NCBI RefSeq assembly: GCF_040215725.1
Contig: NZ_CP157967.1
Coordinates: 3,998,955 to 4,062,954, forward strand
Direction: 5' to 3'
Length of the DNA stretch: 64,000 nt
Source of the DNA: Rhizobium sp. ZPR4
GTDB lineage: Bacteria; Pseudomonadota; Alphaproteobacteria; Rhizobiales; Rhizobiaceae
Made by a program: the position numbers and the translations under genes. This document shows, one piece after another, positions 8,937 through 60,958 of the stretch (position 1 is its first letter; each line of letters opens with the position of its first letter). A model generated the notes under the pieces. It was given only the letters and a program-made list of their open reading frames with translations. It was not told the origin of the DNA and did no database searches.

Positions 8937-8948
8937 ATCAAGCCCTCG

Positions 8949-9641: not shown

Positions 9642-9791
9642 TGGTACTCGGGTGTTTCTGATTGATGCTATGGAGTCTTTTGGGTCGCGATTTTGCGGCC
9701 CTAGTCATTTGTCATCGGTTGAAGCTATAGGATCTTGGCCTAGTTTGCACAAGCGAATCGGGCCGCCCTGCCGTTAGACAAAGGACACGAT

Positions 9792-10589: not shown

Positions 10590-10625
10590 GGCCGATCGCC
10601 CGTGCTGCAATCCTGGAAAAAGTGA

Positions 10626-10648
10626 GGCCGGTGAAAACCGGCCTTTTT
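10626..10648 (+). terminator. Rho-independent terminator after uppP
   Basis: Stem GGCCGG-TGAAAA-CCGGCC at 10626-10643 followed directly by TTTTT. It ends the uppP transcript and faces the small minus-strand gene that ends at 10658. Confidence 0.9.
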
Positions 10649-10657
10649 CATGCCCGA

Positions 10658-10822
10658 TCAGTTCGGGGAGGACGCGTCGATGGAACCCGTCGTGCAGGGG
10701 TCGACGCCGTAGGTCGGCGCACATTCGCCCTTGATCGAAGCGATGCTGCCGCGAGCCACGAAGGAGCCTGCGAGAATCACCAGTGCCGCGCACGCAAACA
10801 GAAGCGCGATAGACTTGCCCAT
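10658..10822 (-). CDS. Small hypothetical membrane-anchored or exported protein (54 aa)
   Basis: The frame reads MGKSIALLFACAALVILAG, one hydrophobic segment that could be a signal peptide or membrane anchor, then a short tail with two cysteines (GECAPTYGVDPCTTGSIDASSPN). The two cysteines could form a disulfide in the periplasm. The start at 10822 was chosen because it opens the hydrophobic segment and has a purine-rich GGAAAGG upstream; a start at 10879 would add a polar extension. I do not recognise a family. The hydrophobic/charged arrangement and ribosome site make it probably real. Confidence 0.55.
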   Translation of the reverse strand: MGKSIALLFACAALVILAGSFVARGSIASIKGECAPTYGVDPCTTGSIDASSPN

Positions 10823-11052
10823 CGAAGAATGCCTTTCCGCAGAAGTGTGAAGCGCGCCACCGACCGGTTTGTTGTCCAAGCCTGAGACGCGCGGCTGTGT
10901 TAGTCAGTGAGATGAGCAATAGCAATAAATGTTCATATTAAATTTGACGTTAATGCTACTATTTCCGGAGTGCGTCTTTTGAGCAACGCCAAGCTGTGAA
11001 TGGCGGGGCTTTGCCAGCGCCTTAAAGTACGATTCTGTCTTCGTAGGGCAAT

Positions 11053-11083
11053 AAAAAACGCCGCTCGGAGAAACCGGGCGGCG
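11053..11083 (-). terminator. Rho-independent terminator after the NDUFA9-like gene
   Basis: On the minus strand a GC-rich stem (11083-11059, CGCCGCCCGG/CCGAGCGGCG with a GU pair) is followed by TTTTTT. It lies 28 bp beyond the stop codon of the gene at 11111-12091. Confidence 0.88.
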
Positions 11084-11110
11084 CAAGAATTTCGTAGAGT
11101 AGCCGAATCG

Positions 11111-12091
11111 TCAGGCGGCTTTGCCGGAGCCTGTGAACTGACCCTGCGGGCGGTAGCGCACCAGATAAGACGGCAGCACGGAAACGAGCAGCGTCGGCAG
11201 CAGGCCGATGCCCTTCAAGGTGCGTCCTTCCGCTTCCGCCTGCTTGGAAACGACATTGTCGCTCTTCAAAAGCGTTACCTGGTCGGCGGTGATCGGCGGC
11301 TTGATGAGCGGCACCAGCGAGGCAACAGAGCCGATCAGCGAGGCAAGGCCGAAGGGGATGGAGACGAGCGCCTTCTTGCGGCTGATGACGGAGAGCGTCG
11401 TCTCGAGACACTCGCGGAAGGACAGCACTTCCGGGCCACCGAGCTCATAGGTCGTTCCGGCCTTCAGCTTGCCATCGACGCTGCGGGCAACCGATTCGGC
11501 GATATCCTCGACATAGACGGGCTGGAACTTCGTCTTGCCGCCGCCGATCAGCGGCAGGAACGGCGCCGTGCGCGACATGTCGGCAAACTTGTTGAAGAAC
11601 TCGTCTTCCGGACCAAAGACGATCGAGGGACGCAGGATGATTGCATCCGGCTTGATCGACAGGATTGCGGTTTCGGCGCGAGCCTTGGTGCGCGCATAGG
11701 CCGAAGGCGAGTTGGCATCGGCGCTGAGTGCCGAAATATGCGTCAGAGACGCGCCGACGCCCCGGGCGGCTTCCGCAATCGCCTTGGCGCCGAATTCCTG
11801 CACGGCATCGAAGGTGTTGCGACCGCTTTCGGCGAGAATGCCGACGCAGTTGACGACATGCTGGGCGCCTTCGACGGCGCGGTCGATGGAGTTACGATAG
11901 CGCACATTGGCCTGGACGATCGAAATCTGGCCGAGATTGCCGAGTGGCTGCAGGAAACCGGCAAGATCGGGACGGCGAACGGCGACACGGATGCGATAGC
12001 CGCGCTTGGCAAGCGCACGCACGACGTGCCGCCCGATGAAACCTGATCCTCCGAACACGGTGACGAGCGGCGGGAGGTTGGACAGGGTCAT
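11111..12091 (-). CDS. NDUFA9-like NAD(P)-binding protein (complex I-associated SDR family)
   Basis: A 326-residue atypical SDR: TVFGGSGFIGRHVVRALAKRG is the dinucleotide-binding loop, followed by VVNCVGILAES, THISALSADANSPSAYARTKA and LRPSIVFGPEDEFFNKFA. This set is characteristic of bacterial homologues of the NDUFA9 subunit of respiratory complex I. A C-terminal segment (LLPTLLVSVLPSYLVRYRP) may associate with the membrane. Alphaproteobacterial homologues are proposed to relate to complex I or quinone metabolism; no direct proof is visible here. It is followed by a strong terminator, and a DUF1330 gene lies 112 bp upstream, so it is probably monocistronic. Confidence 0.88.
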   Translation of the reverse strand: MTLSNLPPLVTVFGGSGFIGRHVVRALAKRGYRIRVAVRRPDLAGFLQPLGNLGQISIVQANVRYRNSIDRAVEGAQHVVNCVGILAESGRNTFDAVQEFGAKAIAEAARGVGASLTHISALSADANSPSAYARTKARAETAILSIKPDAIILRPSIVFGPEDEFFNKFADMSRTAPFLPLIGGGKTKFQPVYVEDIAESVARSVDGKLKAGTTYELGGPEVLSFRECLETTLSVISRKKALVSIPFGLASLIGSVASLVPLIKPPITADQVTLLKSDNVVSKQAEAEGRTLKGIGLLPTLLVSVLPSYLVRYRPQGQFTGSGKAA

Positions 12092-12203
12092 GGCAGGCTC
12101 CTCGAAAGGCTTGGATTGGGCTTATCTGGTTTCGTCTTAGCCGATCCGAGCGCCGAGGTGAAGTGCTATCGCGCTGCATTGCAGCGTCGGCTTTTCAAAG
12201 GGT

Positions 12204-12491
12204 TTAAACCCCTTTGACGACGACCATTTCAGCATCAGCCACTTGCTGACGGATTTTGGCCGCGATCTGGTATTCCGGCGAGTTGTAGCAATCGACGGCA
12301 TGTTGCAGCGACGGAAACTCGATGACGACATTGCGGCCGCGCGCCTGTCCTTCAAGCGGGGTAAACGCTCCGCCACGCGCAAGGAAATTCGCGCCATATT
12401 TCTCGAAGGCAGGCTTCGCGGCGGCAACGTAGTCCTTGTAGCGTTCGGGGTCGCGGACATCCACGCGCGCGATCCAATATCCCTTTGCCAT
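12204..12491 (-). CDS. DUF1330 domain-containing protein
   Basis: A 95-residue dimeric alpha-beta barrel protein starting MAKGYWIARVDVRDPERYKDY and containing FLARGGAFTPLEGQARGRNVVIEFPSLQHA, the DUF1330 signature. The family has a ferredoxin-like fold and no settled function. It lies 27 bp downstream of pyrF on the same strand, so it is probably cotranscribed. Length is normal for the family. The GGAGG-like sequence before the ATG at 12491 supports the start. Confidence 0.9.
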   Translation of the reverse strand: MAKGYWIARVDVRDPERYKDYVAAAKPAFEKYGANFLARGGAFTPLEGQARGRNVVIEFPSLQHAVDCYNSPEYQIAAKIRQQVADAEMVVVKGV

Positions 12492-12518
12492 GTTTTCCTC
12501 CCTGCTTGTTCTGGTCGT

Positions 12519-13211
12519 TTAGAGTGCTGCGTCGATCTCGGCGAGGATGGCGCGGGCGGCCTCCTTCGGATCGGCCGACTTGACGATCGGTCGGGCGACG
12601 ACGAGGTGGCTCGATCCGGCCTTGATGGCATCGGCCGGCGTCATCACCCGCTTCTGGTCGCCCTTATCGCTGCCGGCCGGGCGGATGCCGGGGGTCACCA
12701 GCGCCATGTCAGGGCCGATGATCTTGCGGACGGCGGCGGACTCCTCGGCCGAGCAGACGATGCCGCCCATGCCGGCGAGATGCGCCTGTTCAGCCCGGCG
12801 CAGTACCAGCGTATGCGGATCGTATTCATAGCCAGCGGAGATGAGATCCTCTTCGTCCATCGAGGTCAGCACCGTGACGCCGAGCAGGCAGAGATCGGAC
12901 CCCTTGGCCGCCTCGACGGCCGCCTTCATCGCCTTCGGATAGGCGTGCAGCGTCAGCATCGACATGCCCATCTTGACGATGTTCTCCACACCGGAGGCCA
13001 CCGTGTTGTCGATGTCGAGCAGCTTCATGTCGAGAAAGATCTTCTTGCCGCTGGCGGCAAGATCGCGGGCGAATTCCAGGCCGCCGGCGAAGGCGAGCTG
13101 ATAGCCGATCTTGTAATAGAGGATATCGTCGCCGAGGGCGCTGACCACTTTCTCGGCCTCCTGAAGGTTTGGAACATCCAATCCAACGATCAAGCGGTCG
13201 CGTGCGGTCAT
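12519..13211 (-). CDS. pyrF: Orotidine 5'-phosphate decarboxylase
   Basis: PyrF converts OMP to UMP, the last step of de novo pyrimidine synthesis. The 230-residue sequence has [11 protein letters not shown] at the N terminus, the catalytic [12 protein letters not shown] (the D-x-K-x-x-D signature), [13 protein letters not shown], and the phosphate-binding [21 protein letters not shown]. The start at 13211 (MTARDRLIV) lies next to the stop of the upstream phosphatase gene at 13213, implying translational coupling; a longer frame to 13274 overlaps that gene and was rejected. It is followed by the DUF1330 gene. Confidence 0.95.
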
Positions 13212-48273: not shown

Positions 48274-48739
48274 GGGCGGCAGCTTGCGCCCGCCGCGTGA
48301 GATCGTGCTGACCCGCGATATTGCCGCGCCGCGTGCCCTGCTGTTTCGCCTTTGGACCGAGCCTGAACATCTGATGCGCTGGTGGGGACCGCAGACCACG
48401 ACGGCCTCATCGGTCTCCGTCGACCTGCGGGAGGGCGGCGCCTGGCGGCATTGCATTCTGACGCAGGAGGGCAAGGAATATTGGAGCCACGGGCGCTATC
48501 TGGAGATCGTTCCGCCCGAGCGCCTCGTCTTCACGTTCGCCTGGGAAAATCAGGATGGAAAACCCGGCCATCCCATGCAGGTGACCGTGCAATTTCAAGA
48601 GCTTGGCGAGAAGACGCGTCTCGTCTTCCGCAAGGTCGAACTGCCTGATGATACCGAACTGAGATTGCAGACGGGCGGCTGGGAGCAGGCCCTCGACAAA
48701 TACGTTGCCTACGCAGAAGCCACCTCAAGGGAAGGATGA
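48257..48739 (+). CDS. SRPBCC/AHSA1 domain protein
   Basis: A 160-residue START-like protein: ALLFRLWTEPEHLMRWWGPQ, SVDLREGGAWRHCILTQEGK and YLEIVPPERLVFTFAWENQD are signatures of the AHSA1 (activator of Hsp90 ATPase homologue) subgroup found next to ArsR-type regulators. The hydrophobic cavity binds an unknown ligand. The start at 48257 follows GGGAGGAAAG inside the regulator gene; the next gene overlaps as ATGA, so all three are translationally linked. Confidence 0.92.
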   Translation: MTPATEGGSLRPPREIVLTRDIAAPRALLFRLWTEPEHLMRWWGPQTTTASSVSVDLREGGAWRHCILTQEGKEYWSHGRYLEIVPPERLVFTFAWENQDGKPGHPMQVTVQFQELGEKTRLVFRKVELPDDTELRLQTGGWEQALDKYVAYAEATSREG

Positions 48740-49149
48740 GAGTGATGAAGAAGACCTATCATGGAAGCTGCCATTGCGGCGCCGTCGCTTACGAAGCCGA
48801 TCTCGATCTGCAGGGCGGCACCTTCAAATGCAACTGCTCGATCTGCAGGAAGAAGCGCAACTGGCTGGCCGTCGCCACGCCTGCCGATTTCCGCCTGACC
48901 TCGGGCGAAGACAGCATCGGCGAATATCAGTTCGGCCCGCGCATCCTGCACCACCTCTTTTGCAAGAATTGCGGCATCAGCTCCTTCAACTGGGGCGAAA
49001 ATCCCGCACTCGGCGGCAAGTTCTATGCGATCAGCATCAGCTGCCTGGACGATGCCACCGATGAGGAACTCGCCTCGCTTCCCGTTGGATATTTCGACGG
49101 CCGCGACGATCGCTTCGATCGCGCACCGGAGGAAACGCGCTATCTCTAG
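48736..49149 (+). CDS. GFA family protein (glutathione-dependent formaldehyde-activating fold)
   Basis: A 137-residue zinc protein: GSCHCGAVAYEADLDLQGG, FKCNCSICRKKRNWLA and LFCKNCGISSFNWGENP supply the cysteines of the GFA/Mss4-like fold. The family includes S-(hydroxymethyl)glutathione synthase and CENP-V-like proteins, but most members have no proven reaction. Its ATG overlaps the stop of the SRPBCC gene (ATGA); it is the third gene of the ArsR-regulated unit and convergent with the methyltransferase-like gene that ends 9 bp later. Confidence 0.9.
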   Translation: MRVMKKTYHGSCHCGAVAYEADLDLQGGTFKCNCSICRKKRNWLAVATPADFRLTSGEDSIGEYQFGPRILHHLFCKNCGISSFNWGENPALGGKFYAISISCLDDATDEELASLPVGYFDGRDDRFDRAPEETRYL

Positions 49150-49158
49150 CGAAATGGT

Positions 49159-49827
49159 CTAGCTTTTGGTGGCTAGCCAAATGACGTGACGCGCGCCTGT
49201 CTTGCCATTGGCGCGCATGTTGACCACCTCGGCGGTAAAGCCGCTGTCGCGCAGACGCTTTGTAAAGCGCTCGTCAGGTCCCGAAGACCAGACCGCAAGG
49301 ACGCCACCGGGCCGCAGCGCATCACGCGCCGCCTTCAGACCCTGATAGTCGTAAAGGCCGTCATTGGCCTCCGACGTGATGCCATCAGGGCCGTTGTCGA
49401 CATCGAGCAGGATGGCGTCGTAAGCCGCCTTGCGGGCGCGGATAAGTGGGCGCACGTCACCCTCGTGGATGGCCACACGAGGATCATCGAGGCAGCCATC
49501 AAAGACCGTCGCCATCGGCCCGCGTGCCCAGGTCACGACAGCCGGAACCAGCTCCGCGACCGTAACCTTGGCGTCCGAGCCGAGTTCGCCGAGGGCCGCG
49601 CGCAAGGTAAAGCCCATGCCGAGACCGCCGATCAGTATGTGCGGCGTCTTCCGGCCTTTGATTTTCTCGCAGGAAAGTGTCGCAAGTGCGCGCTCGGAGC
49701 CGCTCAGGCGGCTGTTCATCAGCTCGTTGGTGCCGAGCATGATGGAGAATTCCTGGCCGCGCTGCTTCAAGCGCAGCTCGCCGCCGCCGGGGATTTTCGC
49801 AGTGTCGAGCAAGGTCCAGGGGATCAC
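49159..49827 (-). CDS. Spermidine synthase-like class I methyltransferase-fold protein
   Basis: A 222-residue protein with a Rossmann core: HILIGGLGMGFTLRAALGEL (motif I), KVTVAELVPAVVTWARGPMA, and YDAILLDVDNGPDGITSEAN, followed by LRPGGVLAVWSSGPDERFTK. It resembles spermidine synthase-like proteins without the N-terminal polyamine domain being complete. GTG at 49827 is the likely start because GGAGAG lies six bases upstream; an apparent longer frame runs through a palindromic repeat. The function is unknown; it lies beyond the urocanase gene and 126 bp away. Confidence 0.8.
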   Translation of the reverse strand: MIPWTLLDTAKIPGGGELRLKQRGQEFSIMLGTNELMNSRLSGSERALATLSCEKIKGRKTPHILIGGLGMGFTLRAALGELGSDAKVTVAELVPAVVTWARGPMATVFDGCLDDPRVAIHEGDVRPLIRARKAAYDAILLDVDNGPDGITSEANDGLYDYQGLKAARDALRPGGVLAVWSSGPDERFTKRLRDSGFTAEVVNMRANGKTGARHVIWLATKS

Positions 49828-49842
49828 GGGCAACTCTCCAAA

Positions 49843-49886
49843 GCAATTCCGGGAAAAACGCGTAGCGGTTTTTCGTCCGGAATTGC
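49843..49886. repeat. Palindromic repeat, family B, copy 4
   Basis: GCAATTCCGGGAAAAACG at the left and TTTTCGTCCGGAATTGC at the right, centre CGTAGCGG. It lies between the urocanase-like gene and the methyltransferase-fold gene, just upstream of the ribosome site of the latter. Confidence 0.78.
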
Positions 49887-49953
49887 GTGTCAAACAGGTT
49901 GTTTCGAATTGCCCGGGACCATAGTCTCTAGAAGCTGCCAAGAATAGACGCGC

Positions 49954-51615
49954 TTATCCCAAACGGATATAGGGCACATCCTTTTTCGCAACTTCGTCCA
50001 GCGCTTCCTCATAGCCGGCATCGGCGTAGCGCATGACGCCGAGGGCCGTGTCGTTGGTGAGCGCATGGTCTAGCCGTTCGTCGGCGGCAGCCGTGCCGTC
50101 GGCGACCACCGTGACGCCGCAGCTCGTCATGTAGCCGGCATAGCCGCCGCCGCCCGAATGGACGACAACAAGGTCGGCCATGGACGAGCAGAGCATCATG
50201 GCGTCGATCAGCGGCCAGTCGGCGATAGCGTCGGAGCCGTCCTTCATGCCTTCGGTCATGATGTTCGGGTGTGCCATGGCGCCAGCATCGAGATGGTCGC
50301 GCGAAAACGCGATCGGACCCTTCAGCGCGCCGCTTGCGACAAGCTCGTTGACGCGGCGGGCAAGTGCTGTGCGCTCACCATGGCCGAGCCATGCAATACG
50401 CGCTGGCAGCCCTTCGAACGGCACATGCTCACGGGCAAGCTTGATCCAGTTGGTGATGATCTTGTTGTCCGGGAACATTTCCAGAAGCAGATCGTCGATG
50501 CGGGCGATATCGCTTTCCTCGCCCGAAAGCGCCATCCAGCGGAACGGGCCGATAGCGCGGCAGAAGAGCGGCCGCAGATAGGCTTCGGTGAAGATCGGGA
50601 TATCGAAGGCGTTCGCGACGCCGCCTTCCTTCGCCTGGGTGCGGATCAGGTTGCCGTTGTCGAAGACTTCGGAACCCTTTTTCTGGAAATCCAGCATGGC
50701 CTTCACGTGCTCGACGATCGAGGCGCGGCTTGCCGCCATCAGTTGGCCCTGACCGTCGTCGCGAAGATCCCTAACTTGCTGCAGATTCATGCCCTTTGGC
50801 ACATAGCCATAGACGAGATCGTGGGCCGAGGTCTGATCGGTGACGATATCGGGCACGATGCCGCGGCGTGCAATCTCGGGATAGATCTCGGCCGCATTGC
50901 CGACGAGGCCGACGGATAGCGCCCGCTTCTCCTTGACCGCCGCATCGATCATCGCCAGCGCGGAATCGAGGTCCGGGGCGATTTCCTGCAAATAGCCGAT
51001 TTCCTGGCGCTTCCTGGCGCGTTCCGCATCGATATCGACGCAGAGGATCGCAGCACCCGCCATGCGGCCGGCGAGCGGCTGCGCGCCGCCCATGCCGCCG
51101 AGCCCGGCGGTCAGCACGAAACGGCCGAAGAGATCGCCGCCGAAGCGGCGCTCGGCGATGCGCATGAAGATTTCGTAGGTACCCTGGATCACACCCTGGC
51201 TGCCGATATATTGCCAGGCGCCGGCCGTCAGGCCGCCCCAGCAGATCAAGCCCTTGCGCTGTAGTTCGTAGAACACCTCGGCCTTTGCCCATTGCCCGAC
51301 GATGTTGCAGTTCGCCATGATGACGAGCGGCGCCTTGTCATGCGTGCGGATGAGGCCGATCGGCTTGCCGGATTGGATGAGCAGGGTCTGGTTCTCATCC
51401 ATCTCGGTCAGCGCCTTGACGATGCCCTTATGCGCCGCCCAGTTGCGGGCCGCCTTGCCAAGAGCAGCATAGACGACGAGATTGTCGGGATCTTCGCCGA
51501 CCGAGAGCACGTTTTCGAGCAGCCGCAGCAGGGCCTCCTGCCGCCAGCCTTTCGCACGCAGCTCCGGGCCGCCCGGAATGGGGAATTTCGGGTGACGTGG
51601 ATTGGCTTTCGGCAT
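49954..51615 (-). CDS. Urocanase family hydratase, divergent (candidate thiourocanate hydratase)
   Basis: A 553-residue protein with the NAD-binding core of urocanase, LTAGLGGMGGAQPLAGRMAG (169-188), QSGKPIGLIRTHDKAPLV, TAGAWQYIGSQGVIQGTYE and RDHLDAGAMAHPN. Two active-site segments differ from HutU as I recall it: ARICWVG is here ARIAWLG (Ala408 where Pseudomonas has Cys410) and HHGGGVGMG is HSGGGGYAG (486-494). In context with an MIO-less lyase, a DUF917 protein, a hydantoinase-like protein and a carbamoylase, it more likely hydrates thiourocanate or S-methyl-thiourocanate than urocanate. Conventional annotation would be hutU. It is the last gene of the cluster, 42 bp after a TfoX-like gene. 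Confidence 0.85.
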   Translation of the reverse strand: MPKANPRHPKFPIPGGPELRAKGWRQEALLRLLENVLSVGEDPDNLVVYAALGKAARNWAAHKGIVKALTEMDENQTLLIQSGKPIGLIRTHDKAPLVIMANCNIVGQWAKAEVFYELQRKGLICWGGLTAGAWQYIGSQGVIQGTYEIFMRIAERRFGGDLFGRFVLTAGLGGMGGAQPLAGRMAGAAILCVDIDAERARKRQEIGYLQEIAPDLDSALAMIDAAVKEKRALSVGLVGNAAEIYPEIARRGIVPDIVTDQTSAHDLVYGYVPKGMNLQQVRDLRDDGQGQLMAASRASIVEHVKAMLDFQKKGSEVFDNGNLIRTQAKEGGVANAFDIPIFTEAYLRPLFCRAIGPFRWMALSGEESDIARIDDLLLEMFPDNKIITNWIKLAREHVPFEGLPARIAWLGHGERTALARRVNELVASGALKGPIAFSRDHLDAGAMAHPNIMTEGMKDGSDAIADWPLIDAMMLCSSMADLVVVHSGGGGYAGYMTSCGVTVVADGTAAADERLDHALTNDTALGVMRYADAGYEEALDEVAKKDVPYIRLG

Positions 51616-51657
51616 GGATTTCCCTTCCCTGTTTTCTTTGTTGTTTCGGCGGCCCGG

Positions 51658-51987
51658 CTATTTCGGCGGCAGGCCTTCGACGAAGTCCAGCGCGGCCAGA
51701 AGCAGCCGCTTGCGCAGCATGTCGTTGCCATAGGCTCCCGGCCCGGCGCGCACCCATCCCTGCATTTCCCGGCCGCGGGACAGCATGGGTTTGACGTCAT
51801 GCTGCTCCAGCGCCCAGGTGTCGTTGCCTTTGCCAAGGCGGATCAGCATCCCGTCGTCACGGGCGCCGCACAGCAGATGGCCATTGAGCAGAAAGGCCCA
51901 GCCGCCGAACATCGCTTTCTCGCTAAGCCCGGGTCGTTCCCCAAGCTCGTCTCTCAGCAATTCCTCAAGACCGGCGTCGCGGGCCAT
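51658..51987 (-). CDS. TfoX/Sxy family N-terminal domain protein
   Basis: A 109-residue protein: LSEKAMFGGWAFLLNGHLLC and DDGMLIRLGKGNDTWALEQH, then MQGWVRAGPGAYGNDMLRKR, fit the TfoX N-terminal domain (Sxy). Full-length TfoX regulates competence in gammaproteobacteria, but small single-domain homologues in rhizobia have no known role. It sits inside the catabolic cluster, between the DUF917 and urocanase genes, on the same strand, 42 bp before the latter; a RIME-like repeat precedes it. Whether it belongs to the pathway is unknown. Confidence 0.85.
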   Translation of the reverse strand: MARDAGLEELLRDELGERPGLSEKAMFGGWAFLLNGHLLCGARDDGMLIRLGKGNDTWALEQHDVKPMLSRGREMQGWVRAGPGAYGNDMLRKRLLLAALDFVEGLPPK

Positions 51988-52024
51988 TCAAGCCTCCTGT
52001 GCTTTTCAGCCTTTCTTGCCGGCC

Positions 52025-52137
52025 AGAGCGTGATGCCGAAAAGTGTAGGCGGTTTTCGGACGACATCACGCTCTACTTCTCTGATTCTAGAGCGGATTCA
52101 GATTTTAGGTCGAACAGACCTAAAATCATCCGGCTCT
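52025..52137. repeat. RIME-like palindromic element, copy 3
   Basis: Left palindrome AGAGCGTGATG...CATCACGCTCT around GAAAAGTGTAGGCGGTTTTC; right palindrome GATTTTAGGTC-gaaca-GACCTAAAATC. Orientation is inverted relative to copies 1 and 2. The right palindrome encodes the last residues and the TGA stop of the DUF917 protein. Confidence 0.88.
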
Positions 52138-53219
52138 AGCGCGTATTTCGCGATCTCGATCCCCATCGCCTTTTCGACGGAGGGATAGACAGTCGGGTCG
52201 AGCACGCTGGCAGAGAGCGGAATGATATCCATCGGCACATGCAGGATGAAAACCTTCATGCCTTCGTGCAGCTGGCCGACGCTCAAGGGCTCGCCTTCCG
52301 GCGACAGCGTTGATATGACGGAGGGGAAGGTCGCGAGCCGCTTGCCGCCGGTATCCTCGACGGCCATGTATTCGTTCATCACATGCATGACGACGGCCTT
52401 GTCGCCTGAGCCGACGGTGACGGTGCCGATATCGAAGGCTTCCTTCGTGTAGACGACGTCCTTCTTCGTGATGGTGCCTTCGGCCAGGATATGACCGCCC
52501 GTCGTCTTGCAGATGGCGTCGATGACGGCGCTGCCGCCCTTCTTTTCCGCCTCGATGATCGCTTCGCCGAGCGAAAGCGCCATGGAGATGCCGCCGAGTG
52601 CCGCGTGCGTGCGGACGTAAGACGCACGCAAGGGATTGCGGCAGGAAGCGATGAAGCCGCCGGACTGGTCGGAGGCTACACGCAGGATCGGCGAAATCTT
52701 CGCCGTCGCACCCTTGACCACCAGCTCGATATAGCGGTTTTCGGCGCGGTTGCCGCCGACGGCGGTCTGGATCATCTGCTCGGGCGAGCCCGCCATGCCG
52801 ATCGAACCCATATCGCCCGTCGGATGGGCGCGGATGTCACCCACCGCGTCCACCACCTTGGTTCCGAGAATGGCCGATGGCAGCCAGCCGTTCAGCGTCG
52901 AGGACTTGCCATTCTGGCCGATGATCAGGCCGGAAAGCTTCTCGCCAAGTTCGTCCTGCAGCAGCTGTGCGGCTTTCACATAGTCGATGCCCTGCATTTC
53001 CCAGGGGGTCGTGGAGGCCGGTGCGCCGATGGCGGCTGCCGTGGCAATCCAGTCGTTGTCGTTGAGTTCGTCGATCGACACCAGCTCCGGCTTGCCGACA
53101 TTGACGGCCGCATAGCCGAGCATGCGGCCATGGTCGGCCCAGCCGCCACCGCCTGCGGCGTAAACGGAGCCGCCCTTGACGGCCGCTTCCACATCCTTGG
53201 CAACGAGTACGCGTCCCAT
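52098..53219 (-). CDS. DUF917 family protein (S-methyl thiohydantoin desulfurase-like)
   Basis: A 373-residue protein starting MGRVLVAKDVEAAVKGGSVY, with AAGGGGWADHGRMLGYAAV, DMGSIGMAGSPEQMIQTAVG and ASDQSGGFIASCRNPLRASY, typical of DUF917, a family that, to my recollection, is now named after S-methyl thiohydantoin desulfurase. Its usual neighbours are hydantoinase-type genes, as here: the carbamoylase gene ends 3 bp before its ATG. In the proposed pathway it would remove sulfide or methanethiol from a (S-methyl)thiohydantoin propionate. The C-terminal residues ALEPDDFRSVRPKI come from a RIME-like repeat, so the native end has been altered. Confidence 0.85.
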   Translation of the reverse strand: MGRVLVAKDVEAAVKGGSVYAAGGGGWADHGRMLGYAAVNVGKPELVSIDELNDNDWIATAAAIGAPASTTPWEMQGIDYVKAAQLLQDELGEKLSGLIIGQNGKSSTLNGWLPSAILGTKVVDAVGDIRAHPTGDMGSIGMAGSPEQMIQTAVGGNRAENRYIELVVKGATAKISPILRVASDQSGGFIASCRNPLRASYVRTHAALGGISMALSLGEAIIEAEKKGGSAVIDAICKTTGGHILAEGTITKKDVVYTKEAFDIGTVTVGSGDKAVVMHVMNEYMAVEDTGGKRLATFPSVISTLSPEGEPLSVGQLHEGMKVFILHVPMDIIPLSASVLDPTVYPSVEKAMGIEIAKYALEPDDFRSVRPKI

Positions 53220-53222
53220 TGG

Positions 53223-54497
53223 CTACTCCCGGTTCTGTTTGAGGTTCTTGTCCATGTCGCGCACCGCTTCGAAAAGAACGGCGGCGCCCATGGCGATGTC
53301 GTCATTCTCGGCCCACTCCTCGGCGCAGTGGCTGCGGCCTTCCTTGCAGGGCACGAAGATCATGGCGGCTGGCGCAACCTTGGCGATCCAGGCCGTGTCG
53401 TGGCCGGCGCCGGAGGCCATGCGGCGGTGCTTGGCGCCGACAGTCTCGCAGGCACGCTCGAGCGTTTCGAGCAGCACCGGAGCACCGGGGGTCGGCATGT
53501 TGTCGGAGACGCGCACCGGCGTATTGATCGTGACGCCGTAATCGGCGGCAATGGTCTTCACCTCGCCATCGATCCAGGCGAGGAAATCTTCCATGTCGCT
53601 GCGGATTTCGGCGCGGCCGTCGATCAGCAGCACGACCTTCGAGGGCACGACATTGGCGGCATTCGGCTCGATGCGGAATTCGCCGACGGTTGCAGCAAAA
53701 TGGCCCGGCGTCTTTGCTTGTTCGGCTGCGCGCTGGCGAATATCGAGAACCAATTGCGAGGCTGCCACCAGCGCATCCGCGCGGCGATCCATCGGCGTGG
53801 TGCCGGCGTGGTCGGCGCGGCCTTCCACGGTGATTTCGATGCGGGTGATGCCGGCGATCGCGGTGACGATGCCGATATCCTTGTTCTCGGCTTCCAGCAC
53901 CGGACCCTGCTCGATATGCAGCTCCAGGAAGCCGGCGAGATCCGGGCGTTTCTGGGAGAGCAGCACCGAAGGGTCGCCGCCGACCTCGGCAATGCCCTGC
54001 GAAAGCGTGCGGTCGCCGCTCACGCGGGAGAGCCATGCCTCGGGGATCTGCCCGGTCATGCCGCGGCTGCCGATGCAGGAGACGCCGAAGATGCTGACTT
54101 CTTCGGCCAGGAAATCGACGATTTCCAGATCATGATCGAGCTCGATGCCGCGATCCTTCAAGGAGCGTGCGACTTCGAGCGCTGCGATCGTGCCGGCAAT
54201 GCCGTCGAAGCGGCCGCCGTCGGGAACGGTATCGGAATGCGAGCCGACAAGGATCGTGCCGAGGCCCGGCTTGGCGCCTGCGCGCCGGCCGATGAGATTG
54301 CCGGCGGCATCCATTCGCGTCTCAAGTCCTGCGGCTTTCATCCTCGCGTCGATATAGGCGCGCCCTTCGAGGAAGAGCGGCGAGAAGGCGCGGCGCGTCC
54401 AGGGGTGTCCGGGCTCGGTAATGCCGGCCAGCGCATCGATATCCTCAGCGATACGGTCGGCGTTGACTGGCAGGTTGTGGCGCTTGGGGTCGGTCAT
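53223..54497 (-). CDS. Zn-dependent N-carbamoyl-L-amino acid hydrolase (M20 family)
   Basis: A 424-residue M20-type amidohydrolase of the allantoate/N-carbamoyl-amino acid group: TILVGSHSDTVPDGGRFDGI (metal ligands His87 and Asp98), DFLAEEVSIFGVSCIGSRGM with Glu132/Glu133, LELHIEQGPVLE with His194, and SHCAEEW near the end. Enzymes of this type convert N-carbamoyl-L-glutamate to glutamate, CO2 and ammonia. The ATG overlaps the stop of the hydantoinase-like gene (ATGA), so both are translationally coupled. Fits the last step of the proposed route; allantoate hydrolysis is the main alternative. Confidence 0.9.
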   Translation of the reverse strand: MTDPKRHNLPVNADRIAEDIDALAGITEPGHPWTRRAFSPLFLEGRAYIDARMKAAGLETRMDAAGNLIGRRAGAKPGLGTILVGSHSDTVPDGGRFDGIAGTIAALEVARSLKDRGIELDHDLEIVDFLAEEVSIFGVSCIGSRGMTGQIPEAWLSRVSGDRTLSQGIAEVGGDPSVLLSQKRPDLAGFLELHIEQGPVLEAENKDIGIVTAIAGITRIEITVEGRADHAGTTPMDRRADALVAASQLVLDIRQRAAEQAKTPGHFAATVGEFRIEPNAANVVPSKVVLLIDGRAEIRSDMEDFLAWIDGEVKTIAADYGVTINTPVRVSDNMPTPGAPVLLETLERACETVGAKHRRMASGAGHDTAWIAKVAPAAMIFVPCKEGRSHCAEEWAENDDIAMGAAVLFEAVRDMDKNLKQNRE

Positions 54498-55879
54498 CAG
54501 GCAGCATCTCCGGCAATGATTTGGCGAGGCAAGGGGCGGATGAAGCTGCCGGAGCCGGGTTCGGCGAGCACCTTCTGTCCCTCGGTGATCTGCTTGCCTC
54601 TAAGGTAGGCGGCCGACACAGTCCAGGGCAGGCGGATGCCGTTATAGGGGCTCCAGCCGACGACGTTGTTGCCGCTTGTGGCTGCGTCATAAACCATCTC
54701 GCGTGGCTCCAGCACGACGATATCGGCGTCCTTGCCCGGCGTCAGCGCGCCCTTGATATGGTCGAGGCGGAAATGCCTGGCCGGGTTTTCCGCCATCAGC
54801 TTCGCGGCCCAGGTGAGCGGCACGCCGCGTTCCAGAGCACCCTTGACGAAGAGCGGCACCATGACCTCCAGTCCCGGCACGCCAGAAGCGTTCGCCAGCA
54901 TGTCCGGATTGGTTTTGCGATTTTCCGACCAGCTGACATGGTCGGTCGAGACGAGCCAGACATTGCCTTCCGCCACCTTGCGCCATAAGGTTTCCACTTC
55001 GGCGCGCGGGCGGATCGGCGGATTGATTTTCGCCTTGCCGCCGAGACGCCGCACATCGTTTTCCTCGTCGAGTGTCAGGTAATGGATGCAGCATTCGACC
55101 GTCGCTTCGAAGCCGTCGCGGCGATAGGCGCGGGCTATGTCATAGCCGCGGCCGAGCGAGCAATGCACGACATGGGCCGGGCAGCCGGTATCTGCACCCG
55201 TCTCGAAGATCGTGTGCATGGCGAGCAGTTCGGTGATCGGAGGGCGGGAAAGGCCGTGGGCGCGGTAGTCGGTGACGCCGCTTACCTTCACCTGTTCCAT
55301 GTAGGTGCGCACCGCTTCGTCATCCTCGTTGTGGACGCCAGCGGTCAGGCCTGTCGGTGCGATCGCGGCAAAGCAGGCATCGAGCAGGGCGGGCGGAATG
55401 CGCGGAAAGCGCTTCGGATCGGTGCCGAAGGTGGAGAATTTGAAGGCGGCGACACCGGCCTCGACCATCTCGGCGATGCGTGCCGGGCCTTCTTCCGGGT
55501 CGATCGTGCCGTAAAGAGCGAAGTCGACGCGCGACTGCGGCGCGGCGTGGTCAATCTTTTTCTTCACCGCTGCTGCCGAGCAGACGAGATTGCCTTCGTC
55601 ATAGGGCATGTCGACGATGGTGGTGACGCCGCCGGCAGCCGCCGAACGCGTCGACCAGATGAAATCCTCCTGATCCTTCTGCGAGAGAGAATGGACCTGC
55701 GCATCGATCGCGCCGGGCAGGATCAGCGCCTTGCCGAGCAGATGCCGCTCGCGCGCAGCCGGGGGCACGCCGATACCCACTTCGGCGATCTTGCCGTCGC
55801 TGACGGCGACATAGCCGGCTTCCACGATGCGTTCAGGCAAAACCACGGTGCCTTGCAGAACTAGATCGAAATCGGCCAT
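54497..55879 (-). CDS. Dihydropyrimidinase/dihydroorotase-like amidohydrolase (hydantoinase type)
   Basis: A 460-residue cyclic amidohydrolase with the TIM-barrel layout: LPGAIDAQVHSLSQKDQEDF (first metal motif, here Gln61-x-His63 rather than HxH), AFKFST with the probably carboxylated Lys147, GVHNEDDEAV with His183, CPAHVVHCS with His236/His239 and WLVSTDHVSW with the catalytic Asp. It should open a hydantoin or dihydropyrimidine ring; hydantoin-5-propionate is the candidate substrate. ATG at 55879 has GGAG nine bases upstream; ATG at 55885 is possible. Followed by the carbamoylase gene with ATGA overlap. Confidence 0.9.
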   Translation of the reverse strand: MADFDLVLQGTVVLPERIVEAGYVAVSDGKIAEVGIGVPPAARERHLLGKALILPGAIDAQVHSLSQKDQEDFIWSTRSAAAGGVTTIVDMPYDEGNLVCSAAAVKKKIDHAAPQSRVDFALYGTIDPEEGPARIAEMVEAGVAAFKFSTFGTDPKRFPRIPPALLDACFAAIAPTGLTAGVHNEDDEAVRTYMEQVKVSGVTDYRAHGLSRPPITELLAMHTIFETGADTGCPAHVVHCSLGRGYDIARAYRRDGFEATVECCIHYLTLDEENDVRRLGGKAKINPPIRPRAEVETLWRKVAEGNVWLVSTDHVSWSENRKTNPDMLANASGVPGLEVMVPLFVKGALERGVPLTWAAKLMAENPARHFRLDHIKGALTPGKDADIVVLEPREMVYDAATSGNNVVGWSPYNGIRLPWTVSAAYLRGKQITEGQKVLAEPGSGSFIRPLPRQIIAGDAA

Positions 55880-55926
55880 GTGCATTCTCTCCGCCGGTCG
55901 GTTGGTTCAGTCGGTTGGTTCAGATC

Positions 55927-56039
55927 GAGCATGATGCCGAAAAGTGTGCGCGGTTTTCGGACGACATCATGCTCTATTTTTTTGTTTCGAGGTCGGATTC
56001 AGATTTTAGGTCTGCATGACTTAAAATCATCCGACGCTC
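55927..56039. repeat. RIME-like palindromic element, copy 4
   Basis: Left palindrome GAGCATGATG...CATCATGCTC around CCGAAAAGTGTGCGCGGTTTTCGG (written in two halves); right palindrome GATTTTAGGTC-tgcat-GACTTAAAATC with one mismatch. The right end supplies the codons for the last residue and the TGA stop of the lyase gene (GTC GGA TGA). Confidence 0.86.
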
Positions 56040-57616
56040 GTGACGGTGTCGTGATAAAGCCGCTCCTCGACCCGCTCCAGTGAGCCGAGCGCGAAGAAAT
56101 CATCATAGGCGATGATGGGCTTGTGGGCGATCAATTCCGAAACGAAAGCTTCGGAAGCCAGTTCCTCCTCGATCGCCTCGACTTCGGCCGAAAGAGGACG
56201 ATCGACCACATAGAAATCCGCATGTTTGCGTACGACCTCATAGAGCATACGCGCCACGCCTTCCGGCTTGTCGCCGAGAATGTCCATCGCCTGGGCCGAA
56301 AGCAGCGCTTCCAGGGCTGCCAGACGCTTCAGCGCCCGCATCTGCCGCTCGAAGCGTTCGATGACGAGTGGCAGGAAGGCGGCCTCGTCTTCCATGCCTG
56401 CAGCAACCACCAGCGACTGTGCAGAGACCGGATTGGACATGGAGAGAACGCGTGAGAAGATTTCGCCGGCAAGCTTGATGATCGGGCCGAAGCCGGTGGC
56501 GATCTTGCCCTCCGGCACGAGATTGACGGGCAGGCCGCGCCGCTGGCCATTGCCGAGCAGGACGCAGCGATTGAAGGCATTGCGGGCCGCATGCGCCATG
56601 CAGATGACAGCGCCTTCGAGCAGAATGGTGACATCGAGCGGCAGCGAACCGCCAGAGGTCATGACGCGGCCATCGACGATGACGGGATTGTCGTCCGAGC
56701 GGCCGGTGGCGGCAAGAATCTTGTGGCCGGCGGTCAAAAGGTTTTCGATGACGGCCCCGAAGACCTGGGCGATCATGCGCAGACTCAGCGGATCCTGCAC
56801 ATGGGTCGCGACCGGCCACGGCCATTCGTCCGAGGCGTTGCAGAGCCATGCGCCGATCAGGGCTTCGCGGGGGGTGCCGACATGGCGCACCGAAATCCAG
56901 GGGTCGCGCGAAGCACCGAGCGCGCCGGCCGCCATCATGCCGGTCGCCAGCAGGACGCGGATCGAGGCGGCGGCATTGCGGGTTGTCTCGGCGGCGGCGG
57001 CGAAGCTGACGGCGTTGACACTGAGCGAGGCGAGGCTGTCGCGCGGCATCATCCTGACGGGAGCGATACCGGCGGCATCGAAGGCGTCAGCCGCCTGCAT
57101 GCGGCGGCCGCGATAGACGGCCTCGCCGACGCCAGTCAGAACGGCGCCGATCTGGCCCATCAGGCCGATATCCGCGCAGCCGATCGAGCCGGTGCGGCGG
57201 ACAACGGGAATGACATCGGCGCTGAGAAGCTGCAGGTAGGACTGAATCAGCTCTTGCGAGCATCCGACCTGGCCGGTGAGAGCGGTGTTCACCCGGATCG
57301 CCATGGCATTGCGCACGACCGACATGGAAAAGGGTGCGCCGGTCCCGAAGTGATGAGCACGCACGAGGCCGAGATTGAAGGCATCCAGATCTTCGGGAGA
57401 CCACTCGACATCCTTCATGGCGCCGACGCCGGTCGTAGAGCCATAGACGGGCATGCCGGATTGGATCGTGCTTTCGAGAACGCTGCGCGCCAGCCGCACG
57501 CGCGCCATGCCGGCTTCCGATGCGGAGGGCAGGGCGACGCCCGCCCCGATCCGCACCAGATCGCTGAACCCAAGGGGTTGCCCGGTGAGTTCGATGCCGG
57601 CTCTCTGACGCTCCAT
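56027..57616 (-). CDS. Aromatic amino acid lyase family protein lacking the MIO triad (candidate ergothionase)
   Basis: A 529-residue homologue of histidine/phenylalanine ammonia-lyase: VYGSTTGVGAM with Tyr58, THVQDPLSLRMIAQVFGAVI, ATGRSDDNPVIVDGRV and AGMEDEAAFLPLVIERFERQ. At the position of GSVGASGDLAP it reads GSIGCADIGLM (143-153), so Ala-Ser-Gly is Cys147-Ala148-Asp149 and no MIO cofactor can form. Ergothionase, a known member of this family, eliminates trimethylamine from ergothioneine and would need no MIO because the leaving group is already quaternary. The neighbouring urocanase, DUF917, hydantoinase and carbamoylase genes fit this. AAGGAG precedes the ATG at 57616. The stop lies in a RIME-like repeat. 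Confidence 0.85.
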   Translation of the reverse strand: MERQRAGIELTGQPLGFSDLVRIGAGVALPSASEAGMARVRLARSVLESTIQSGMPVYGSTTGVGAMKDVEWSPEDLDAFNLGLVRAHHFGTGAPFSMSVVRNAMAIRVNTALTGQVGCSQELIQSYLQLLSADVIPVVRRTGSIGCADIGLMGQIGAVLTGVGEAVYRGRRMQAADAFDAAGIAPVRMMPRDSLASLSVNAVSFAAAAETTRNAAASIRVLLATGMMAAGALGASRDPWISVRHVGTPREALIGAWLCNASDEWPWPVATHVQDPLSLRMIAQVFGAVIENLLTAGHKILAATGRSDDNPVIVDGRVMTSGGSLPLDVTILLEGAVICMAHAARNAFNRCVLLGNGQRRGLPVNLVPEGKIATGFGPIIKLAGEIFSRVLSMSNPVSAQSLVVAAGMEDEAAFLPLVIERFERQMRALKRLAALEALLSAQAMDILGDKPEGVARMLYEVVRKHADFYVVDRPLSAEVEAIEEELASEAFVSELIAHKPIIAYDDFFALGSLERVEERLYHDTVTSVG

Positions 57617-57663
57617 GTCTTTTGTTCTCCTTTTTCGCAAGGCTATGCGAGCCTTATCGACAA

Positions 57664-57675
57664 TGGGATATCCCA
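57664..57675. promoter_or_regulatory. Perfect palindrome upstream of the lyase gene
   Basis: TGGGATATCCCA, a perfect 12-bp palindrome 48 bp before the lyase start and on the leftward transcript side of the divergent region shared with the cupin gene. A candidate operator for the catabolic cluster; no regulator gene is adjacent. Confidence 0.35.
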
Positions 57676-57899
57676 AATGCCGAACACCTGATGTGCCATG
57701 CGAGCGAGAGTACACGCAAAGCACGCGGTCGCATCATGCATTATAGCCGAAAGAGAGATACATCCGCTCCCGTCGCGACGGCTGCCTTTAAATTCAGCGC
57801 GGCCTGCTTGTTCGAAGTCGATGGCGACAGGATTGACGAACGGGCTTTGCAGCCGTTTCTATGCGGAACGATCCGTTCAACACCCGGAAAATCATTGCG

Positions 57900-58232
57900 A
57901 TGAAGATTCCTGAACTGCCTTTTACGGTAACGAATTGGGATGAGATTGCCCCCACCAGACATGCGGGCGAAAGCGGCCATGCGCTCTGGCGGACATTGAA
58001 CATCGGGGACATCCGCGTTCGGATTGTTGAATATACGCCCGGCTATGTTGCCGATCACTGGTGTGATCGCGGCCATATTATCTATGTGCTCGAAGGTGAA
58101 TTGATCTCCGAGCTGAAGGATGGGCGGATATCGATCCTCACTCAAGGCATGAGCTATCAAGTGTCCGATTTCGGCGACGCTGCACACCGGTCATCGACAA
58201 AGACAGGCGTCAAGTTGTTCATCGTCGATTAA
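57900..58232 (+). CDS. DHCW-motif cupin fold protein
   Basis: A 110-residue single-domain cupin: MKIPELPFTVTNWDEIAP, then VEYTPGYVADHWCDRGHIIYVLEGELISEL with the DHxC...H metal-type motif, and YQVSDFGDAAHRSSTKTGVK. The family, known as DHCW cupins, has no established function. The start at 57900 fits the family; an in-frame ATG at 57861 lacks a ribosome site. It is divergent from the lyase gene. Cupins of this kind often act on small carboxylates or as sensors, so an accessory role for the catabolic cluster is possible but unproven. Confidence 0.85.
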   Translation: MKIPELPFTVTNWDEIAPTRHAGESGHALWRTLNIGDIRVRIVEYTPGYVADHWCDRGHIIYVLEGELISELKDGRISILTQGMSYQVSDFGDAAHRSSTKTGVKLFIVD

Positions 58233-58298
58233 AATCGCACTAGGAAGAAACGCAGCTTGGTTGATGGGCCGCTGCAGCCACAATGACGCGGCCGCACG

Positions 58299-59873
58299 TC
58301 AACCCAGATGCCAGGCGATGTAGAGCAGCGTTAGCGCGATCACCCAAAGCGCAAGGCGGCCGGAGCGGCTGTGCTTGGCTTCCGACTTGCCGATCGCTTC
58401 CGCCGTCTGCGGATCGAAGCGCAGGCCGTTTTCGCTCATGTGCAGAAGCTCGTGATGGAATTTCTCCGTCTTGGCAGCGATTTCGGGTGCCGCTTCGGCA
58501 AGCTTCACGGCAGCCTTCAACCCGTCCTTCAGATCGGTCATGATCCGCTTCGGGCCGAGATTGGTGCGGATCCAGTCGCCGACGACCGGTTCCGAAGCCT
58601 TCCACATGTTGAAGCGCGGATTGAGCATGCGCGACACGCCCTCGACCACGACCATGGTCTTCTGCAGCATGACAAGCTCGGGACGCGTCTCCATGTCGAA
58701 GAGTTCGGTCACCTCGAAGAGCAGGGTCAAAAGCTTGCCCATGGAGATCGTCTCGGCCGGCTGGCCGTGGATCGGCTCGCCGATCGCGCGGATGGCCTGG
58801 GCGAAGCTTTCCATATTGTGGTGGCCGGGTACGTAGCCGGCTTCGAAATGCACTTCGGCGACGCGGAGATAATCGCGGGTGATGAAACCGTAGAGGATTT
58901 CGGCGAGGAAGCGGCGTTCCTTCCTGCCCAGGCGGCCGACGATGCCCATGTCGACGGCGACGATCATACCTGTGGGATCGACGAAGAGATTGCCGGGATG
59001 CATGTCGGCATGGAAGAAGCCGTCGCGCAGCGTGTGGCGCAGGAAGGACTGGATCAGCGTATCGGCAAGCGTGTTGAGATCGTGGCCTGCGGCCTTCAGC
59101 CCCTCAACGTCGGACATCTTCACGCCGTCGATCCATTCCATGGTGATGACGTCGCGGCCGGTGCGTTCCCAATCCACCTTCGGAACGCGGAAACCGGGGT
59201 CCTTCTCGGTATTCTCGGCAATTTCCGAGAGCGCAGCTGCTTCGAGCCGCAGATCCATCTCGACCTTCGTCGTCTGCTCGAGCGTCTTCGTGACTTCCAC
59301 CGGCCGAAGACGGCGGCTGGAGGGCATGAAACGCTCCTGCATCCCCGCCACGAGATACATTGCCTTGATATCGTTGGAGAAGCGCTGGCGCACGCCTGGC
59401 CGGACCACTTTGACCGCAACGCGCTTGCGCCCTTCGGTCGTGTCGATCTCCGCCGGATGTACCTGCGCTATCGAGGCAGCCGCGATCGGCTCGCCAAAGC
59501 TGGCATAGAGATCGTCGATCCGCCGGCCGAGTGACGATTCGATCGCCGCCGTCGCCGTTTCATGCGGAAAGAAGGCCATCCGGTCCTGAAGCTGCGACAG
59601 GTCGTTGGCCATGTCGACGCCGACGACATCGGGCCGCGTTGCCAGGAACTGGCCGATCTTGACATAGGACGGGCCGAGCCGTTCCACCGCCTTTGCAAGC
59701 CGGTCGCTGCGCGCCTGGCTCTTTGCCTTGCGGCGGGCAAAGATGCTGACGAAGGATTTGGCCAGGCTGACGGAGGGCGGCAGCCCTTCGGACGGCAACG
59801 CCATGACCACGCCTTCGCGCACGAGCACCCAGCCGACCCGGACAAGGCCGAAATATGCGCTGAAAGCAGTCAT
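58299..59873 (-). CDS. ubiB: UbiB family atypical kinase (ubiquinone synthesis)
   Basis: UbiB is an ADCK-type membrane-associated protein needed for coenzyme Q synthesis. The 524-residue sequence has LGPSYVKIGQFLATRPDVVG (the KxGQ motif), PIAAASIAQVHPAEI (alanine-rich nucleotide loop), VAVKVVRPGV with the kinase lysine, LRDGFFHADMHPGNLFVDPT and IVAVDMGIVGRLGRKERRFL (DFG-equivalent), and a C-terminal hydrophobic helix (LALWVIALTLLYIAWHLG). It lies 62 bp downstream of ubiE in the same orientation. The start at 59873 is acceptable though its ribosome site is weak. Confidence 0.95.
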   Translation of the reverse strand: MTAFSAYFGLVRVGWVLVREGVVMALPSEGLPPSVSLAKSFVSIFARRKAKSQARSDRLAKAVERLGPSYVKIGQFLATRPDVVGVDMANDLSQLQDRMAFFPHETATAAIESSLGRRIDDLYASFGEPIAAASIAQVHPAEIDTTEGRKRVAVKVVRPGVRQRFSNDIKAMYLVAGMQERFMPSSRRLRPVEVTKTLEQTTKVEMDLRLEAAALSEIAENTEKDPGFRVPKVDWERTGRDVITMEWIDGVKMSDVEGLKAAGHDLNTLADTLIQSFLRHTLRDGFFHADMHPGNLFVDPTGMIVAVDMGIVGRLGRKERRFLAEILYGFITRDYLRVAEVHFEAGYVPGHHNMESFAQAIRAIGEPIHGQPAETISMGKLLTLLFEVTELFDMETRPELVMLQKTMVVVEGVSRMLNPRFNMWKASEPVVGDWIRTNLGPKRIMTDLKDGLKAAVKLAEAAPEIAAKTEKFHHELLHMSENGLRFDPQTAEAIGKSEAKHSRSGRLALWVIALTLLYIAWHLG

Positions 59874-59935
59874 AGCGCCTCAAGGTCTCTAGAAGCGGAG
59901 GCCGCAAGCCGCATCACATGGCTCGACATCATGCT

Positions 59936-60712
59936 TCAGAGCTTCCAGCCGGAGTGCAGCGCGGCGATGCCGCCGGTATAGTTGGTGAAGCTCACGCGCG
60001 AGAAGCCGGCCTCGCGGATCATCGTCGCAAAGTCCTGCTGGTTCGGGAACTTGCGGATCGATTCCACCAGATACTGATAGGGCTCGGCATCACCCGTGAT
60101 CGCCTTGCCGAACTTCGGAATGGCGTTGAAGGACCAGGTGTCGTAAACGCGGTCGAGCAGCGGCAGGTCGACTTCGGAAAATTCGAGCACGAGCAGCCGG
60201 CCGCCGCGCTTCAGCACGCGGTAGGCTTCCTTCAGCGCGACATCGATGCGCGGCACGTTGCGGATGCCGAAGGCGATCGTATAGGCGTCGAAGGAGTTGG
60301 GTTCGAAGGGAAGTTCCTCGGCATTCGCCTCGACGAAGGTGAGATTGTCCGAGAGCTTCTTCTTCTCGGCACGCTCGGCGCCGACGGCAAGCATCGAGCC
60401 GTTGATGTCGAGCACGGTTGCGTGCGCCAGCCGGTTGGATGCCTCCACGATGCGGAAGGCGATGTCGCCCGTGCCGCCTGCTACGTCGAGCACCTTGTAG
60501 GCGGGATCCTTGCGCGGGTTGAGCGCCGCGACCATTCCATCCTTCCAGGCGCGATGCATGCCCATGGACATGACGTCGTTCATGACGTCATAGCGCTTGG
60601 CGACCTTGTGGAACACCTCGTTGACGAGGCCTTGCTTTTCGCCATCGGCTACGTCGCGGAAGCCATAGGATGTTTCCATGCCGCCATCGGCGGAGGTGCG
60701 GCTGTCTGCCAT
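59936..60712 (-). CDS. ubiE: Demethylmenaquinone/ubiquinone methyltransferase UbiE
   Basis: UbiE carries out the C-methylation step of ubiquinone synthesis using SAM. The 258-residue protein shows [40 protein letters not shown] (motif I), the signature [40 protein letters not shown] and [18 protein letters not shown]. Length is standard. It is divergent from mutM, whose start lies 246 bp away, and is cotranscribed with ubiB. Confidence 0.96.
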
Positions 60713-60958
60713 CGGCTCAACTCCGTTACACTCCAGCGTCGCGCGTTGTATGTGACGCGCAAAGATCGCTGTAACACTTTAAATCCGCTGCATAATCTAA
60801 TCCCCAGGTCGATCTCGGCCTAAGGAATTATGCAGTATTCGGCGGCGGACCATAGCGAAATCGCGTTTGCCACGCTATCTCATCAGCCAGATCACCAGCC
60901 GCAATGTCTTGGGCTATAGCTCAGATCATAAGCGGTTGAAACACAAAGATGGATAGCC

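Follow-up and report, generated by a model that had tools for sequence, protein, structure and literature searches.

Ergothioneine breakdown has reportedly been described already in Burkholderia sp. HME13, Treponema and Agrobacterium radiobacter, and the chemistry of its successive steps is said to come from the HME13 and Treponema work, for HME13 reportedly beyond ergothionase, together with the names given to the NCBIfam models. Two other routes draw on related proteins: histidine utilisation (HutH and HutU) uses a lyase and a urocanase of the same superfamilies, and the S-methyl-ergothioneine route uses a homologous hydratase and a DUF917 protein. The window analysed here is a stretch of 64,000 nucleotides of Rhizobium sp. 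ZPR4 (contig NZ_CP157967.1, positions 3,998,955 to 4,062,954 of the forward strand), and at its positions 49954-57616, on the minus strand, this genome of 7.7 Mb carries five enzyme genes and one small TfoX_N gene. The cluster of this soil bacterium very probably degrades ergothioneine, an antioxidant of fungi, from an external source to glutamate, as judged from its family matches and gene context. The pathway is known, and what is new is an operon conserved in most of the sampled genomes of the genus and a divergent lyase clade for which NCBIfam holds no model.

Family models and the proposed pathway

The pathway was assigned with the models of NCBIfam release 20.0 and their curated equivalog cut-offs. 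Four of the five enzymes, all encoded in the one cluster, exceed the cut-offs for steps of ergothioneine use, namely the thiourocanate hydratase, the thiohydantoin desulfurase, ErtD and ErtE. In contrast to this set, the ZPR4 lyase matches no ergothionase model in NCBIfam and a TfoX_N gene is added; the lyase also stays below the hutH equivalog (200.5, cut-off 539.15). The five enzyme genes that had been read as lying together on one strand are all present, in the following arrangement.

56027..57616, minus strand: aromatic-lyase homologue without the methylidene-imidazolone (MIO) motif, proposed ErtA-like ergothioneine trimethylamine-lyase, step 1 (residues Y58, K68, R280 and E409)
54497..55885, minus strand: ErtD, predicted hydantoin-5-propionate amidohydrolase, step 4 (NF058538, 783 bits, cut-off 600)
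53223..54497, minus strand: ErtE, predicted N-carbamyl-L-glutamate amidohydrolase, step 5 (NF058540, 631.5 bits, cut-off 520)
52098..53219, minus strand: predicted thiohydantoin desulfurase of the DUF917 / S-Me-THD family, step 3 (NF058529, 601.5 bits, cut-off 440)
51658..51987, minus strand: small TfoX_N-domain protein within the operon, between the desulfurase and hydratase genes (PF04993, 32.8 bits, cut-off 30.1)
49954..51615, minus strand: predicted thiourocanate hydratase, a urocanase paralogue, step 2 (NF058530, 1062.5 bits, cut-off 930)

The Pfam domains of the five enzymes are Lyase_aromatic, Amidohydro_1, Peptidase_M20, S-Me-THD_N/C (S-Me-THD is the current Pfam name for DUF917) and Urocanase N/Rossmann/C. 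A good ribosome-binding site, AAGGAG, precedes the lyase ATG at 57616, the stop of ErtD and the start of ErtE have one base in common, and the gap between ErtE and the desulfurase is three bases; the six genes would form one operon and be co-transcribed. A search of positions 48500-60900 for RNA elements returned no Rfam family at the gathering score, and the promoter and terminator scan gave predictions not above the level of shuffled sequence.

In the proposed pathway, the MIO-less lyase would split ergothioneine into trimethylamine and 2-thiourocanate, which a hydratase of the nicotinamide adenine dinucleotide (NAD) type would convert into 3-(5-oxo-2-thioxoimidazolidin-4-yl)propionate. The DUF917 enzyme would then swap sulfur for oxygen, giving hydantoin-5-propionate and sulfide, ErtD would open the hydantoin to N-carbamyl-L-glutamate, and ErtE would yield L-glutamate, CO2 and ammonia, with ergothioneine from outside being used as a source of carbon, nitrogen or sulfur. 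This choice of substrate, products, step order and external supply is suggested by the gene identities, the family thresholds, the synteny and the missing MIO motif. The same steps are attributed to Burkholderia sp. HME13, whose ergothionase papers are cited in PMC13405746.

Two of the enzymes also pass broader models, the hydratase that of generic hutU (699, cut-off 375) and ErtE the Zn-dependent hydrolase model NF009531 (807, cut-off 486, above its NF058540 score), so that the assignment depends on the more specific models and on gene context. The best PDB match of ErtE is 3n5f, an N-carbamoyl-L-amino acid hydrolase. In ErtD, Gln63 replaces the initial His of HxH, the metal-binding motif of D-hydantoinases, and Gln occupies this position in 79 of 79 related copies, in which the five remaining positions that we take to be metal ligands are kept. 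The claim that default annotation would hide the cluster is outdated for NCBIfam release 20.0, but named records still read 'aromatic amino acid lyase', 'histidine ammonia-lyase' or 'DUF917'.

The hydratase can also be told from HutU by its residues. In two groups first defined by identity to the ZPR4 hydratase (L085 included; the five duplicates L052, L053, L054, L076 and L078 left out), 196 columns are invariant within both, and 36 of these separate the 28 thiourocanate-type from the 17 HutU-type rows; at position 408, Ala (27 rows) or Gly (one row) in the former group stands against Cys in all 17 of the latter. In a tree of 32 of the 52 rows, the ZPR4 protein groups with thiourocanate-type sequences and PDB 7ned, and the HutU rows stand apart. 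Compared with histidine utilisation, the cluster thus differs in these columns and in a lyase without MIO, and a HutU-type and a HutH-type gene adjoin each other elsewhere in the ZPR4 genome (C1:3229127-3232247).

Conservation, transport and source of ergothioneine

The desulfurase is present in 33 of the 37 sampled same-genus genomes and in one of the 24 others in the order; class-wide it exceeds its cut-off in 5 of 337 genomes, and phylum-wide the hydratase does so in 6 of 398. In the four same-genus genomes without it, the top lyase matches reach 27-28% identity and the top hydratase matches 50-51%, values so low that no orthologous lyase or hydratase is present there, and the gene set is inherited as a unit. 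A desulfurase gene lies at most about 1.5 kb from all six thiourocanate hydratases over the cut-off, against none of the 19 HutU-type genes that served as control. The five-gene order beside ubiE-ubiB is kept in 19 of 19 same-genus loci, ZPR4 included, these 19 being a subset of the 33 genomes of the genus that gave a match. Among 80 named loci, the best 80 of 447 from a search with a related desulfurase, lyase and hydratase each occur in 78 and ErtD and ErtE each in 79, and the misses at L108, L117 and L137 fall on short or cut contigs. The TfoX_N gene is less constant (17 of the 19 same-genus loci; 59 of the 80 named loci).

Relatives of these genes are also found at a greater distance. On a Burkholderia arboris replicon, the desulfurase and hydratase are 69% and 70% identical to those of ZPR4, ErtD and ErtE, on the other strand, are about 43% identical, and the lyase near those genes has 37% identity to Treponema denticola ergothionase. 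A cluster on the plasmid pAMI4 of Paracoccus aminophilus (L184) holds ErtD, ErtE, desulfurase and hydratase, and a plasmid of Deinococcus sp. KNUC1210 (L185) has all five gene types, with the hydratase (767, cut-off 930) and the desulfurase (395, cut-off 440) below and ErtE above the cut-off. The ZPR4 genome itself carries two further, distantly related DUF917 genes elsewhere, with about 2 kb between them (C2:295380-299263).

A search for EgtD gave no match in the ZPR4 genome, and EgtD exceeds its cut-off in only one of the 37 same-genus genomes. Given the lack of an EgtD match in ZPR4 and the separate hut locus, scavenged ergothioneine is the expected source, and import is likely, rather than own synthesis. 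In three related clusters outside the genus (L050, L064 and L065), four OpuAC/OsmF-type ATP-binding cassette (ABC) transporter genes lie between the lyase and ErtD; the family assignment was checked for L065 and, in L050, for the binding protein. A binding protein of this type occurs in 7 of the 80 named loci, two of which are the L064 and L065 records again (L105, L103). Such transporters fit a substrate that, like ergothioneine, is a quaternary ammonium compound. A four-gene betaine-type transporter elsewhere in ZPR4 (L098) was considered as a dedicated importer and rejected, its binding protein being found in 37 of 37 same-genus genomes.

The lyase and its relatives

The MIO tripeptide is absent from the ZPR4 lyase, which reads GSIG-CADIG where the genome's HutH-type lyase reads GSVGASGDLAPL. 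The loss of ASG, by which the alignment bears out the MIO-less lyase of the initial annotation, is a one-residue shortening identical to that of T. denticola ergothionase (6s7j), with which the fold is also common. Residues Y58, K68, R280 and E409 align with Y53, K63, R280 and E411 of the T. denticola enzyme, presumably catalytic there, and the Tyr, Lys, Arg and Glu are all invariant in 32 aligned sequences including the ZPR4 lyase; in the HutH-type counterpart elsewhere in the genome, ASG is present and the Lys is missing. The predicted structure has the expected fold, with a mean predicted local distance difference test (pLDDT) score of 82.3, and the Foldseek template modelling (TM) scores of this model favour ergothionase. 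Among the matches listed, the closest homologues are mostly 527 residues long, and the top named match, from Rhizobium rhizogenes, is 93% identical.

In the lyase tree, which is unrooted, has long branches and comprises 25 rows (the five L067 lyases, P0001, P0085 and P0120 were left out), the ZPR4 lyase belongs to its own alphaproteobacterial clade of 18 rows with support of 100/100, separate from the group of Treponema and Burkholderia (89/86). A further branch (99/97) divides T. denticola, B. arboris, L071 and the ZPR4 clade from HutH, L063, L072 and the Deinococcus lyase. From this topology, the ZPR4 lyase might represent a second deep lineage of MIO-free trimethylamine-lyases in alphaproteobacteria, where the elimination would have arisen apart from the Treponema and Burkholderia ergothionases with the rest of the pathway unchanged; we hold this to be rather doubtful, and the tree also fits a single MIO loss common to both lineages and L071.

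Other lyases were met in the same comparison. The Deinococcus lyase, grouped with the ergothionases before the tree was made, is not counted as one here, as it falls among the MIO-type enzymes in the tree and matches the ergothionases at the Lys position but not at that of the Glu. Two further MIO-less aromatic-lyase homologues are found on contig C2 of ZPR4, L071 (L006:1486-3099, GSIGAADLAP) and L072 (L008:1489-2994, GSAGYLTHN); by eye from the translations, one of them has as neighbours a gene resembling ornithine cyclodeaminase and one for an ABC ATPase, and the other is flanked by a polar amino-acid ABC transporter and by a gene resembling sarcosine oxidase.

Candidate substrates and biological meaning

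The five-step route from ergothioneine to glutamate put forward in the initial annotation is supported by the four curated models, the MIO-less lyase with its Tyr, Lys, Arg and Glu, the diagnostic hydratase residues, the all-or-none inheritance and the betaine-type transporters in some related clusters. Several observations weigh against it. The lyase has an identity of 25% to T. denticola ergothionase, 30% to the B. arboris lyase and 23% to the HutH-type lyase, while L071, outside the cluster, reaches 33% and 36% to the first two. As the lyase is this far from characterised ergothionases (25-30% identity), step 1 is one that we infer. In the predicted structure, pLDDT falls below 50 in the active-site loops 60-71 and 399-411, which are unreliable, and no argument is therefore made from the pocket; by Foldseek E-value, three histidine ammonia-lyase (HAL) chains of P. 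putida rank above ergothionase, and the preference of VIA-align for ergothionase is only 1.5 Z. No transporter gene lies within the operon of ZPR4 or its genus, a further difference from the Ert systems of NCBIfam, and the L098-type binding protein is present even in the four genomes without the cluster. A sigma-70-like site was sought upstream of the lyase gene and none was found, the cluster of Martelella alba (L145) is without ErtD and ErtE, and on pAMI4 there is no lyase within 9 kb on either side of the cluster.

The initial annotation had left the substrate as ergothioneine or S-methyl-ergothioneine, and of these the former is favoured: the ZPR4 hydratase scores 742 against the S-methyl model NF058531 (cut-off 880) and the DUF917 protein 283.5 against NF058532 (cut-off 450), and both pass the non-methylated models, which makes ergothioneine the likely substrate. 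Degradation of S-methyl-ergothioneine, in which the DUF917 enzyme would free the thiomethyl group as methanethiol, draws on the same protein families and would suit the S-Me-THD-like name of the Pfam domain, but it is very unlikely here, as a cluster with an S-methyl-type hydratase (L067; hydratase 891 against 880, desulfurase 409 against 450) differs in appearance and L067 and 8q9v lie apart from the ZPR4 group in the hydratase tree. At L067 (8178-18460, genome G146), the hydratase and DUF917 genes precede a tandem array of five lyase paralogues, 487-505 residues long and all MIO-less, and one idea is that these form mixed tetramers. A further candidate is ergothioneine sulfonate, the oxidised form of ergothioneine. 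The A. radiobacter strain of the sulfonate report is said to be K84, now filed under Rhizobium rhizogenes, a close relative; T. denticola ergothionase reportedly accepts the sulfonate too, and the sulfonate route is said to have other late steps. Degradation of the sulfonate as in A. radiobacter (Yan et al. 2022, a report that appears as a citation in PMC13405746 and PMC9967237) is nevertheless highly improbable for ZPR4, even with A. radiobacter among the ergothionase bearers according to PMC13405746, since the thiohydantoin desulfurase, hydantoinase and carbamoylase suit the thione route instead.

It may also be asked which amine the lyase removes. If it released another one, such as ammonia from 2-thiohistidine, the remaining steps would be the same and the opening of ergothioneine itself would fall to a different MIO-less lyase, L071 for example; this would agree with the low identity to characterised ergothionases, with L071 being slightly closer to them, and with the pairing of a hydratase and a desulfurase with an ordinary MIO-type lyase at L063. 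The MIO tripeptide, however, activates primary amines in ammonia-lyases and is lost in the ZPR4 lyase, the Lys common to ergothionases and the ZPR4 lyase is missing in L071, L071 is not in the cluster, and quaternary-amine transporters occur in some related clusters, all of which make release of another amine most unlikely. L063 itself (7814-12606, genome G146) has a hydratase and a desulfurase over the cut-off beside an ASG lyase; the 20 kb around this site gave no match to ErtD or ErtE, and the locus possibly serves a 2-thiohistidine ammonia-lyase route.

With ergothioneine as the preferred substrate, its breakdown would extend in this genus to 33 of the 37 genomes sampled, and with EgtD over its cut-off in only one of the 37 the genus would feed on ergothioneine from fungi and other microbes. 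Among the matches listed, titles and abstract openings held no literature on these genes in rhizobia, nor on ErtD or ErtE as enzymes. If K84 was indeed the strain of the A. radiobacter work, as is said, assays on an orthologue of the lyase may already exist, making the finding less novel still. A study of the gut (PMC13405746, 2026) used a single Burkholderia ergothionase as query and, in the parts of the article at hand, reported only similarities to ammonia-lyases; its conclusion was that few genera have ergothionase, with a caution that divergent homologues might escape detection, and it gives BAM63550 as the accession of the Burkholderia ergothionase. The ZPR4 lyase clade, with only about 30% identity to the B. 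arboris enzyme, may be such a missed homologue. If it is truly a second lineage, queries with Burkholderia sequences only would miss rhizobia as degraders of ergothioneine and as sources of trimethylamine in soil.

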